Source: Bacteroidaceae bacterium (GTDB lineage: Bacteria > Bacteroidota > Bacteroidia > Bacteroidales > Bacteroidaceae). Taken from it: a stretch of 64,000 bases of DNA. The notes below the pieces were generated by a model, which saw nothing but the letters and a program-made list of their open reading frames with translations, did no database searches and was not told the DNA's origin. The stretch lies in assembly GCA_017617235.1 (NCBI GenBank), contig JAFZWQ010000024.1, forward strand, positions 1 through 64,000, in the 5' to 3' direction. Positions 24,840 to 28,625 of this stretch are shown here, in pieces; position 1 is the stretch's first letter; every line of letters starts with the position of its first letter. The translations under genes and the position numbers were made by a program.

Positions 24840-24857
24840 GGCTTCCTAGTATTTTTT
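24816..24857. terminator. Weak hairpin between convergent genes
   Basis: CTAGGAA (24816-24822) pairs with TTCCTAG (24843-24849), followed by ATTTTTT on the plus strand. It overlaps the 3' ends of both converging genes. Confidence 0.45.
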
Positions 24858-27800
24858 GGTAATCGAAGCGCCGTCGTAGTAATGGCGAAGGATGTCGTCG
24901 TAGGCGTGTCCCTGCGAAGCCATCACCGCAGCTCCTATCTGACACAGTCCCACACCATGTCCCCATCCCGCACCATGCAGGATGAAACGCTGTGGTATTA
25001 CCGGCTCATTGGTTCCATTGGCTTCCTCAGGCTCATAGGTCACAGTGAAATTCGATGATTTTAGGTGCGATTTGCTCAGCGTTCGCCTGATTTCCAATTC
25101 TTTACCAATAGTGAATGAGGCTTCAGTTCCTACAATTTTCAGTCGAACCAGATGACCGCTTTCTCCGCGTTCAACGTCTTCCAGCCGGACAATCTGTCCC
25201 AAATCGCGTCCTAACCGTTCCGTTATGATATCGTGCAGTTCCTGTTGGGTATATTCCACCGTCCAACGATAGAAGTCTTGCGTCTCCTGGTCGTAATCAT
25301 TCAGCACTGTGGCGAGTAATTCGCGGTCGTTTGTGTTGCAATACGGGTCACTGACGGAATGCAGGTAGGAATGAGGCTGATTCTCCCAGCAATTTTCGAA
25401 GTCGTTGGTCTGGCCGCCACAACATTTTCCGAATCGCGTGTCGCACACTTCTCCCTCACTAGTCAACACCTGTCCACGAGTCTCTTCAATAGCGCGTTGT
25501 ACTTGCGGACTGATTTGTCGACTGATGCCTTGATATCGCTGACAATGGTCGTCGGCACAGACATCGAAGATAGTATGTTCCTCTTGGTCGTGCCAGCGTA
25601 TGAGTTCGGTATCCGTTTTCTTAAATTGGAAGAAGGCTTGTGCCGGTCCCTTTTTGCGCTTTTCCATCTGTGCCAACAGCCACGAACGACTGATTACAGC
25701 ACTTGCTTTTAGGAATTCCAACGGACAGGTTGCTTTCATTTCACTACTGATAACACTGGCCAAGTATTGTTCGGAAGGCAGCACATTGATTGCCACGATT
25801 TTGCCTTCATCCACTACCAATTGCAATTTGCCCTGGAAGGTTTGTATTTCCTGACGTTCCCAATGAAAATCTTTACCAATAGTTACATCATGCAAACTGA
25901 ATGTTGCTTTTTCATCCGTGGGTCGTAGCGTCAGGTCGTGATAGATGTTACCATTCCACTTCAATGCACCATCCTCGATAGTTACGGTCTGTGTACCCGA
26001 TACCACTGCGCCTTTAGCACGATATTCACCGTTAAGCGTAAATTTAAGCACATCGGTTGTCATAATGCCGACCGAAACTTCGGGTTCGGACGCTCTTCCG
26101 TCCTCCCCCATAATGGGGAGGGGCTGTGCAGCCGTGTTAGCGTCACCCATTACGGGAGGATTTAGAGGAGTCCCTTTGATTTTGTCAATGACTGGTACGA
26201 GTTCCTCCTCCGTCATCGTTACCTCACGCAGAATGCTGATGGCTTGTTCTGCATTGATGCGGCGAAAATCCTGTTCGCGCGGTGTGATGATGAGACCGCC
26301 CATATCCAATGCCCCCGGACTGATAATCCACTGGTCATCGCCTTGTGCAAAATAACAGGAGGGACGGTGTTTCTTACGCGGAAAGACAAGGGTGATGATT
26401 TCATCTTCGCGCCCAGCTCCCCATTCCTGGTGCCAAGAGATGACATTCATACGGGGCTCAGGACTACCTTCGGGAATGGGTAGTGCATTGTAGAGACGCT
26501 GACATAATACGCTGTCTGGTGCAGTGGGCATGGAACGTATCACGAAGACAGGACATACCCATGTATTGAGCATGTACAAGCCACATCCACGTTTGTTCCC
26601 GCTATCTTCTAATTCTGCCTCCTGTTGGGCTGTAATGGGATAAAGTTTCTGGAGTTGTGTATCGTAGTTTTTCCAGTCGCGTTCTATGGGAAGGACACCT
26701 CGCAGACCAGCTTGCAGATGGCAATGGTCGGGGCATGAGGCACCACACTCCGGACCATTGTAGAAAACAATGTGACGTGGCATATTCCAGGCCAAATGCC
26801 TCAACGTATTGAAGTGTGCATAAATGGTCTGTGGCTGATGACGACGTGTAGGAATAGTCAGATGCCCAGGAAGAATGGGGAATGGATTGAGCAGTATTTC
26901 GTAATGTTTCTCTGTGGGCAGACAATGCTGCTCCTTGGGCCTATTGTGATTGCAGAGGAAACAGGGACGCTTTTGGATGTCTTTTGGGTCGATGCTGGCA
27001 CCAGTGCTTACAATGCGGGCGGGATTCCATTGTGCCATAATCGTCCCCTCGGTATCGCCCAGTGATTCCGTGAGCGTACGAGTTTGCACATTGGCGAGGG
27101 CTGCATAACGCTCTGCAGCTTCATGCCAACTGGCAATTTCAGAAGCATGAAAATGCTCGATTTCATCGGCATTTACTTCATGTTGCCACAATTTGTTCAG
27201 GCGTTGGCGGGCACGTATCTCGTGGGTTCGCAATTGGTCTTTATAAAGATTATTCCGATTTACGGCTTCCGTTGAGAGTGCCGCATCGCTGTTTCCCTCC
27301 CATCGACGGCATAAATACAGTTCATCGTAGATGCGCCCGATGCGATAGCGACGACTCAACATCAGTCCCAGGGCATAGTCCTCGCCATAGCTGGTGTTGG
27401 GGATTTGTATCTCGCGCAAAACCGGTGTGAAGAAAGCACGGGGTGCGCCCAAACCATTGATGCGCAATGCATTGTTACGCCCGTTGGCTTCTGTCCACTC
27501 GCTGTGATCGATGAGTCCTGGTGGTAATGTTTCCAGTTGGAAGTTACACATACGATACGAACCAATGACCATTGCGGCTCCTTCCTGATAAAAGGTATCG
27601 ACAATACGTTGCAGCGCCTGTGGCGAAGAATAGAGGTCATCGCTGTCGAGCTGCACGGCAAATCTTCCGCATCGCTGGTCGTGTATGGCCAGGTTCCAGC
27701 ATCCGCCAATTCCCAGGTCGTTCCTTTCGGGAATGAGGTGGACCAATGTCCCGTTTGTTGCGATATCATCACAACTTAAAGAACGAAGCAGTTCGGTGGT

Positions 27801-28625
27801 CCCGTCTGTAGAATGGTTGTCGATAACGATGACATTGAAAGGGAACGTCGTTTGTTGGGAGAGTGCTGAACGAACGGCATCCTCGATGGTACGCACACGA
27901 TTGCGGACAGGAATGATAACTGAAGCCTCGACTGGCATTTCCGGACGATCCAGAATAATCTGGTCATATTCTCCAGCTGCCAGATGGGCATTGATTTGAC
28001 GCAGGTGACGGGTGACAGCACGTTCCATCTCGATTTGACGGCTGCGATTACGCGGGTCAACATAGTCAAATTGCTTCTGCCCACTTAACCGGGTGTCGGT
28101 CTCAACTTCTGTATATAGGTATTCGGTGACATGGAGCGGCAAACAGGTACGGCTGAGGAAAAGCCTCAGATCATAGAGTCCCGCATGCTGATAGGGGTGC
28201 TGCATGTCCTGTTGGAAGTATTCCTTGAGGCATTCTGTGCGTAATAGCAATACAGATCCCATGGCAAAATCATCGCGTACGCTTCCTAACTGGTAGTCGA
28301 TGAGTGGACGATGTTCACGTTTGCCATCAGGCAGTATGGTATCATGGTCGGCATACACGAGCGAGGCGCCACTGTCATCTGCAATGGTTACCAATCGACT
28401 CAGCGCCTGATAACCCAGTTCCAACGGCCACGTTTTCATATATATAAGGGTATACCGTGCCAGTGAGAGGTTCGCAATTTGCTGCAGGGCACGCGTAGAG
28501 TAGGGTGGTTCGGTCAGCTGGTGTATGTTAGCTACATTCGGGTCTGTCCGAAACTGCTCGAGTGTCTGTTGGACCTGCTCCTCATTTTCGTAAGGAATGA
28601 AGCAATCAATGGATGGATGTGTCAT
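24846..28625 (-). CDS. GT2 glycosyltransferase / HIT-type phosphorylase-like / SpoIID fusion protein
   Basis: 1259 residues from the ATG at 28625, which follows a promoter box; an upstream Met at 28871 would read through the promoters. Three parts are visible. (1) Residues 1-230 look like a degenerate GT-A domain, then 233-445 a GT2 domain with VEASVIIPVRNR, VIVIDNHSTDG and LDSDD (DxD). (2) Residues 545-800 contain CFLC (555-558) and the HCHLQ motif (634-638) of the GalT/Ap4A-phosphorylase branch of the HIT superfamily (DUF4922-like). (3) Residues 849-1259 are a SpoIID/LytB domain with LPSEQYLASVISSEM and GHGVGLCQIGA. No signal peptide is seen, odd for SpoIID, which acts on peptidoglycan outside the cell. 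A 30-residue repeat-derived insert (818-848) joins parts 2 and 3. Confidence 0.85.
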   Translation of the reverse strand: MTHPSIDCFIPYENEEQVQQTLEQFRTDPNVANIHQLTEPPYSTRALQQIANLSLARYTLIYMKTWPLELGYQALSRLVTIADDSGASLVYADHDTILPDGKREHRPLIDYQLGSVRDDFAMGSVLLLRTECLKEYFQQDMQHPYQHAGLYDLRLFLSRTCLPLHVTEYLYTEVETDTRLSGQKQFDYVDPRNRSRQIEMERAVTRHLRQINAHLAAGEYDQIILDRPEMPVEASVIIPVRNRVRTIEDAVRSALSQQTTFPFNVIVIDNHSTDGTTELLRSLSCDDIATNGTLVHLIPERNDLGIGGCWNLAIHDQRCGRFAVQLDSDDLYSSPQALQRIVDTFYQEGAAMVIGSYRMCNFQLETLPPGLIDHSEWTEANGRNNALRINGLGAPRAFFTPVLREIQIPNTSYGEDYALGLMLSRRYRIGRIYDELYLCRRWEGNSDAALSTEAVNRNNLYKDQLRTHEIRARQRLNKLWQHEVNADEIEHFHASEIASWHEAAERYAALANVQTRTLTESLGDTEGTIMAQWNPARIVSTGASIDPKDIQKRPCFLCNHNRPKEQHCLPTEKHYEILLNPFPILPGHLTIPTRRHQPQTIYAHFNTLRHLAWNMPRHIVFYNGPECGASCPDHCHLQAGLRGVLPIERDWKNYDTQLQKLYPITAQQEAELEDSGNKRGCGLYMLNTWVCPVFVIRSMPTAPDSVLCQRLYNALPIPEGSPEPRMNVISWHQEWGAGREDEIITLVFPRKKHRPSCYFAQGDDQWIISPGALDMGGLIITPREQDFRRINAEQAISILREVTMTEEELVPVIDKIKGTPLNPPVMGDANTAAQPLPIMGEDGRASEPEVSVGIMTTDVLKFTLNGEYRAKGAVVSGTQTVTIEDGALKWNGNIYHDLTLRPTDEKATFSLHDVTIGKDFHWERQEIQTFQGKLQLVVDEGKIVAINVLPSEQYLASVISSEMKATCPLEFLKASAVISRSWLLAQMEKRKKGPAQAFFQFKKTDTELIRWHDQEEHTIFDVCADDHCQRYQGISRQISPQVQRAIEETRGQVLTSEGEVCDTRFGKCCGGQTNDFENCWENQPHSYLHSVSDPYCNTNDRELLATVLNDYDQETQDFYRWTVEYTQQELHDIITERLGRDLGQIVRLEDVERGESGHLVRLKIVGTEASFTIGKELEIRRTLSKSHLKSSNFTVTYEPEEANGTNEPVIPQRFILHGAGWGHGVGLCQIGAAVMASQGHAYDDILRHYYDGASITKKY

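Follow-up and report, generated by a model that had tools for sequence, protein, structure and literature searches.

A stretch of DNA of 64,000 nucleotides from a Bacteroidaceae bacterium (the window; contig JAFZWQ010000024.1) carries a gene whose product joins a GT2 glycosyltransferase domain, the Pfam domain of unknown function DUF4922 and a SpoIID domain. The fusion of the three in a single chain is real, and in related genomes its parts mostly sit with the muropeptide permease AmpG and other peptidoglycan-recycling genes. We tentatively propose that the protein may well be a cytosolic enzyme that breaks down the peptidoglycan disaccharides imported by AmpG; the predicted role of its SpoIID domain is to substitute for the kinase AnmK by opening the 1,6-anhydro ring of 1,6-anhydro-N-acetylmuramic acid (anhMurNAc).

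Profile matches in Pfam and NCBIfam, motifs and fold comparisons all bear out the three domains that a first-pass annotation had read from the letters of the window, including the motifs of its HIT and SpoIID parts (Table 1). The region comprising residues 1–475 was modelled with a mean predicted local distance difference test score (pLDDT) of 91, and the GT2 domain has a GT-A fold with a DxD motif. The GT-A-like domain ahead of it aligns over long stretches with K4CP and other two-domain transferases and is conserved at Y91, D93, G114-S115 and R117-D118 in 35 sequences. DUF4922 combines an HxHxQ motif with a fold of the diadenosine tetraphosphate (Ap4A) phosphorylase/GalT type; its nearest sequence and nearest solved fold are both those of the yeast Ap4A phosphorylase Apa2, with 16% identity in the structural alignment and a fold shared along the whole domain. 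The SpoIID domain matches PF08486 with 85 bits (curated cut-off 23) and TIGR02669 with 173 bits (curated cut-off 83.3); the equivalog model for stage II sporulation protein D, TIGR02870, gave 127.9 bits, below its cut-off of 234.75, and the fusion protein has no match to PF03702, the AnmK family. A further family, PF26216, was named on homologues by a protein search and does not appear among the matches given by the Pfam copy of this analysis.

Table 1. Positions of the fusion gene, its domains and its two flanking genes in the window.
Feature	Positions	Strand	Remarks
Whole fusion gene	24846..28625	minus	1,259 amino acids; GT-A-like / GT2 / DUF4922 (HIT, Apa2-like) / SpoIID in one frame
N-terminal degenerate GT-A-like domain, residues 1–228	27942..28625	minus	From the model, conservation and alignments with two-domain transferases
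GT2 glycosyltransferase domain, residues 229–470	27216..27941	minus	QLDSDD (D327, D329, D330 invariant), GEDY, RRW
DUF4922, HIT superfamily of GalT/Apa2 type, residues 480–850	26076..27188	minus	H634-x-H636-x-Q638, C555/C558
SpoIID domain, residues 870–1259	24849..26018	minus	E962 aligned with catalytic E101 of Clostridioides difficile SpoIID; zinc-like motif H1017/C1023/H1027/C1028
LPG_synthase_TM flippase-like gene	23853..24836	plus	Convergent neighbour, not counted in the unit
FGGY kinase (RhaB-like)	28741..30195	plus	Divergent neighbour, not in the unit; first gene of the rhamnose cluster; Pfam-confirmed

The residues expected of active sites are kept. Counted over 26–38 sequences per domain, query included, D327, D329 and D330 of GT2, H634, H636, Q638, C555 and C558 of DUF4922 and E962, H1017, C1023, H1027 and C1028 of SpoIID are invariant or nearly so. 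E962 is invariant in 26 sequences, and the corresponding Glu of the Bacteroides clarus homologue aligned with the GEM stretch of the C. difficile SpoIID structures 5i1t and 5txu, for which the available text of PMC6221140 names E101 as catalytic and names the zinc ligands as well. The zinc motif reads H-x5-C-x3-H-C here and H-x5-C-x4-H-C in C. difficile, the C-to-H gap being one residue shorter; this correspondence was matched by eye, HMMER alignments do not pair the columns exactly, and the motif does not occur in all SpoIID members. No sign of decay was found in any domain, except that the N-terminal GT-A-like domain has no clear active site.

To follow the fusion through other genomes, we used two sets of loci: 40 neighbourhoods from 38 genomes (20 picks within the window's order, Bacteroidales, and 20 outside it), hand-picked among genomes with matches and fetched at 20 kb each, and 80 named loci, the best-scoring of 563 candidates. 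The nearest named relatives of the window's bacterium are Prevotella kin. The full fusion recurs in 63 of the 80 named loci, which belong to separate assemblies; two others carry a fusion whose N-terminal part is lost at a contig end (L146, L157), two join DUF4922 to SpoIID (L172, and L103 with a separate glycosyltransferase frame), and 13 have SpoIID as its own frame. In the 40 neighbourhoods the split form consists of collinear genes for GT2 (about 485 amino acids, both glycosyltransferase domains), DUF4922 (about 320) and SpoIID (about 440), next to fusions of GT2 with DUF4922 (L058, L059), of DUF4922 with SpoIID (L073) and of all three (L074). The recurrence in 63 of 80 named loci, together with the finding that the best 120 of 7,997 scored database matches all have the three Pfam domains, refutes a chance read-through of separate genes or an assembly artefact, a concern raised by the first-pass annotation that can practically be dismissed.

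A SpoIID frame lies inside the fetched stretch in 17 of the 20 picks from the order and in eight of the 20 from outside it. Of the latter 20 hand-picked DUF4922 genomes, 19 also have a matching-class SpoIID, which in 11 lies beyond the 20 kb fetched; therefore, the parts mostly occur in the same genomes, whether linked or not. In three named loci (L165, L168, L173) a SpoIID of this class stands without GT2 or DUF4922 in the stretch retrieved, and a fourth, L164, is cut by a contig end. In genome G188 the SpoIID match crosses one in-frame TAG.

The commonest gene downstream of the unit encodes an AmpG-family muropeptide permease. Counted with AmpG profiles that were built from these same loci, it comes next on the same strand after 19 of the 25 SpoIID-bearing frames in the 40 neighbourhoods, with two more having it one gene further, and in 56 of the 80 named loci, three of which end without a further frame. 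Other recurrent neighbours, among the clusters identified by profile (most smaller clusters lie outside that set), are NamZ (PF07075+PF20732), a NagX-like protein, MurQ and a BadF kinase resembling MurK/NagK, so that the unit is associated with ampG and with further recycling genes. The clearest case, Bacteroides clarus (L174), has the order GT2, DUF4922, SpoIID, AmpG, NamZ, a D-lactate-dehydrogenase-like gene, NagX, MurK and MurQ; the FAD/iron-sulfur oxidase of this cluster could consume the D-lactate released by MurQ. Since Hoylesella oralis (L173) keeps AmpG directly after SpoIID although the fetched stretch has neither GT2 nor DUF4922, the link between SpoIID and AmpG appears independent of the other two parts. 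The first-pass annotation had suggested a cell-wall-linked glycan process: the link to the cell wall stands, and the context narrows it to peptidoglycan recycling.

Two features of these clusters were recorded in passing. Members of one AmpG cluster, c5 (for example, L060 7170–9068), are a variant of about 625 amino acids with an insert of about 190 residues between the transporter halves. An early gene of the recycling cluster (L174 2499–5585; L057 2918–5968) encodes about 1,000 amino acids, in which Golvesin_C is the one Pfam domain matched; it may correspond to the gene named xanthan lyase in Tannerella forsythia. The conserved neighbours c34 and c35 were considered as AmgK and MurU and rejected; they presumably resemble RlmN and PdxA, and an AmgK-like/MurU-like pair lies elsewhere in the window's genome.

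Across 295 Bacteroidales genomes we scored a genome as carrying the unit if it had a strong DUF4922 match, which gave 71 carriers and left out G562 and G654 (E 2e-6 and 3e-5). SpoIID of the matching class, assigned by aligned span and with G568 and G636 counted as the other class, occurs in all 71 and, among the matches listed, in at least two genomes without DUF4922, where a further copy of this class is possible. AmpG-like genes (E up to 1e-20, paralogues included; no match reaches the curated TIGR00901 cut-off of 350 bits) are present in 71 of 71 carriers versus 28 of 224 other genomes, and MurQ (E < 1e-45, a cut-off of our choice) in 40 of 71 versus 27 of 224. AnmK shows the opposite distribution, being found in 11 of the 71 carriers versus 188 of the 224 others. 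The contrast persists among the 99 genomes with AmpG (AnmK in 11 of the 71 that have the unit versus 21 of the 28 that lack it) and when AmpG carriers are counted by family (10 of 30 unit-bearing families versus 14 of 16 others); 92 of the 99 hold the unit or AnmK. These counts ignore kinship, and the contrasts are inflated by shared descent. A universal MurK/MurQ partner was rejected on the MurQ count.

The window's own genome (85.5% complete) fits this pattern. It has an AmpG orthologue with 57% identity to an operon AmpG, located on another contig (C4, L175) in tandem with a distant AmpG-like paralogue (about 29% identity), and no match to AnmK (PF03702) or MurQ was found in it. The fusion fits this gap. 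A further contig (C49, L178 102–2271) encodes an AmgK-like kinase fused to a domain like the RapZ C-terminus, followed by a MurU-like uridylyltransferase, both scoring below the curated NCBIfam cut-offs.

The first-pass annotation had also remarked on the lack of a signal peptide in a protein with a SpoIID domain, which normally acts outside. Judged by a hydropathy heuristic on mechanically assigned starts rather than by a signal-peptide predictor, the lack is confirmed: the peak 10-residue N-terminal hydropathy of the window protein is 0.64. None of the 22 stand-alone SpoIID frames (< 520 amino acids) in the 40 neighbourhoods has a clear signal peptide either, with peaks of 0.78–1.52 in 21 and a borderline 1.96 in L062, and 12 of the 13 SpoIID-only frames of the named loci reach 1.48 or less, the 13th (L164) being cut by a contig end. 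For comparison, 29 of 30 frames of glycoside hydrolase family 3 (GH3) have a start candidate of about 1.9 or more (best of three starts). In most stand-alone SpoIID proteins a short polar segment leads directly into the conserved VGI region; L055, L069 and L088 have longer mechanical starts. As the stand-alone partners likewise have no clear signal peptide at their start, they and the fused domain appear to form a cytosolic SpoIID subfamily, as far as sequence can tell. Exported SpoIID proteins are known, as the annotation held, but here the domain does not appear to be a misplaced export domain. The GH3 frames come from a survey of 45 matches in five genomes, all in frames of 722–1070 amino acids, of which 30 were given a locus and examined at their first three start candidates. 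A cytosolic NagZ of family GH3 as the missing step was rejected, as 29 of the 30 located frames begin like signal peptides and one (L197) is unclear; this search covered GH3, not GH20 or other glucosaminidases. The single GH3 match of the window's genome likewise has a signal-peptide-like start.

Most knowledge of peptidoglycan recycling comes from Proteobacteria, in which the imports of AmpG are processed by NagZ and AnmK. The NagZ and AmpD steps are summarised in the available text of PMC9928106. In Tannerella forsythia, according to the accessible parts of PMC7670621, AmpG imports the disaccharides of N-acetylglucosamine (GlcNAc) with anhMurNAc and with N-acetylmuramic acid (MurNAc), the bacterium grows on GlcNAc-anhMurNAc, no AnmK orthologue is predicted and the metabolic route of anhMurNAc is described as still to be explored. 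The same gene order as in our loci is reported for T. forsythia: the operon Tanf_08345–08385 comprises xanthan lyase, gtf, gtf, lytB, ampG, ybbC, murT, murK and murQ on one transcript under the regulator GppX, and without this regulator growth on muropeptides is reduced (PMC5388701, available text). This order is nearly that of B. clarus and is apparently a split form of the unit beside ampG; it differs in that the genes are separate, and gene order is the basis for equating the second gtf with DUF4922. The statement that the unit had not been described thus needs amending for its gene order, and holds for its function, the accessible text giving none to gtf, gtf and lytB. Titles and abstract openings of the open-licence literature searched on SpoIID, AmpG, AnmK and T. 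forsythia contain no role for the GT2/DUF4922/SpoIID unit, and the two open-licence papers found for DUF4922 concern, in their visible parts, only plant GDP-L-galactose phosphorylases.

In the mechanism that we envisage, the chain would stay in the cytosol and act on GlcNAc-anhMurNAc and GlcNAc-MurNAc. The Glu/zinc site of SpoIID would hydrate the anhydro ring, or hydrolyse a glycosidic bond of MurNAc, and the resulting forms of MurNAc could be used by MurK/MurQ or, in the window's genome, by the AmgK-like/MurU-like pair. GT2 and DUF4922 may process the GlcNAc half via a nucleotide-sugar intermediate, which is the least certain step. A water-adding SpoIID has a precedent, since the chlamydial SpoIID of Waddlia is described in the available text of PMC6635528 as a muramidase acting on denuded glycan. 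A complete one-chain salvage without AnmK and NagZ can be drawn as well, although we regard it as rather improbable: SpoIID would hydrate the ring to give GlcNAc-MurNAc, GT2 running in reverse would move GlcNAc onto a nucleoside diphosphate (NDP), and DUF4922 would phosphorolyse NDP-GlcNAc to GlcNAc-1-phosphate and a nucleotide. Overall, if this is true, the disaccharide would be split phosphorolytically, conserving the glycosidic-bond energy, and MurNAc would go on to MurK/MurQ or AmgK/MurU.

Several observations weigh against this proposal. The SpoIID reaction of B. subtilis and C. difficile makes the anhydro ring rather than opening it (for C. difficile, PMC6221140, available text), ring opening by any SpoIID was not found in the accessible parts of the SpoIID literature examined, and growth of T. 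forsythia on free anhMurNAc is only restricted (PMC7670621, available text). The cytosolic placement depends on the hydropathy heuristic. Among the order's 99 AmpG carriers seven have neither the unit nor AnmK, 11 of the 71 unit genomes have AnmK as well, and MurQ is present in just 40 of them. The pattern weakens outside the order, where AnmK occurs in seven of 19 unit genomes and also in the one DUF4922 genome without SpoIID, and where 12 of the 20 neighbourhoods lack SpoIID in the fetched stretch. Given the AnmK carriers inside and outside the order, the exclusion of AnmK is partial and partly phylogenetic. The window fusion itself is flanked by a flippase-like gene and a rhamnose cluster, with AmpG on another contig. 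Finally, three loci of family f35 (L076, L086, L087) have a GT4-type gene between SpoIID and DUF4922 (tested with Pfam in L076 and assigned through the same cluster in the other two) and no AmpG within the 20 kb fetched, an arrangement that fits a synthetic role better.

Such a role is conceivable, if doubtful: DUF4922 would make or regenerate an NDP-sugar, the tandem GT-A domains would assemble recycled amino sugars into a short glycan, which a cytosolic SpoIID would trim or cyclise. Besides the f35 loci, the resemblance of the tandem GT-A-like domains to the polymerase K4CP speaks for it, as does the description of the T. forsythia operon as holding recycling and protein-glycosylation genes (PMC5388701, available text). 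The flippase-like LPG_synthase_TM gene adjoins the window fusion and occurs within two of the 40 neighbourhoods and 21 of the 80 named loci, but never directly beside a unit gene across the 120 fetched loci; a link to it was set aside on this count and is retained solely as support for synthesis. The recurrent neighbours identified by profile are instead mostly AmpG, NamZ, NagX, MurK-like and MurQ genes, and every unit carrier of the order has an AmpG-like gene.

Alternatively, the SpoIID domain might act in the cytosol as a muramidase or transglycosylase, cleaving MurNAc-GlcNAc bonds in longer imported chains with no ring opening, the AnmK pattern being historical. MurNAc-GlcNAc is the known bond specificity of SpoIID; the chlamydial enzyme acts on denuded strands (PMC6635528), and the need of C. 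difficile SpoIID for prior removal of the peptides (PMC6221140) matches the peptide-free disaccharides given as the main AmpG cargo (PMC7670621; available texts). Those disaccharides do not contain the bond in question, and the exclusion of AnmK persists among the order's AmpG carriers, so we consider chain cutting unlikely. A dinucleotide phosphorylase, by which the unit would regulate recycling through an Ap4A-like nucleotide with no processing of sugars, would agree with Apa2 as the closest sequence and fold of DUF4922, yet seems very unlikely to us.

Around the fusion, the window holds a rhamnose catabolism cluster at 28741–33966 on the plus strand, divergent from it, whose isomerase-, transporter-, aldolase- and mutarotase-like genes were judged by sequence only. 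Rhamnose neighbours also flank the fusion in a close relative (L095). A functional link of the fusion to the rhamnose genes or to ksgA was set aside, the usual partner being AmpG. On its other side, a large predicted secreted protein of 1,228 amino acids is encoded at 19105–22791 on the minus strand.

Set against known systems, the unit that we propose as a ring-opening enzyme would serve the same step as AnmK, the use of imported anhMurNAc, whereas AnmK is a kinase of another family (PF03702) and absent from 60 of the order's 71 unit carriers. With the SpoIID lytic transglycosylases of B. subtilis, C. difficile and Waddlia it shares the fold, and with the C. difficile form the catalytic Glu and, as matched by eye, the zinc motif; it differs from them in a longer aligned span within the domain, in its partner genes GT2 and DUF4922 and in having no clear signal peptide, whereas the chlamydial and B. 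subtilis forms have one according to the available texts. DUF4922 shares the whole-domain fold and the HxHxQ motif with the Apa2 and GalT branch of the HIT superfamily, but at 16% identity. K4CP, a bifunctional chondroitin polymerase, likewise has two GT-A domains per chain; in the fusion the N-terminal one is degenerate, and no sign of polymer synthesis was seen. The proposal thus combines a known pathway with known folds, in a combination and compartment for which we found no description.

The unit is a concrete candidate for the anhMurNAc step in T. forsythia and in 60 of the order's 71 unit genomes, where AmpG is present and AnmK is not recognised. Being encoded as one chain in many Prevotella kin, it could be expressed and assayed as a single protein. 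If the proposal is true, the SpoIID family would gain a cytosolic branch and DUF4922 a possible function.

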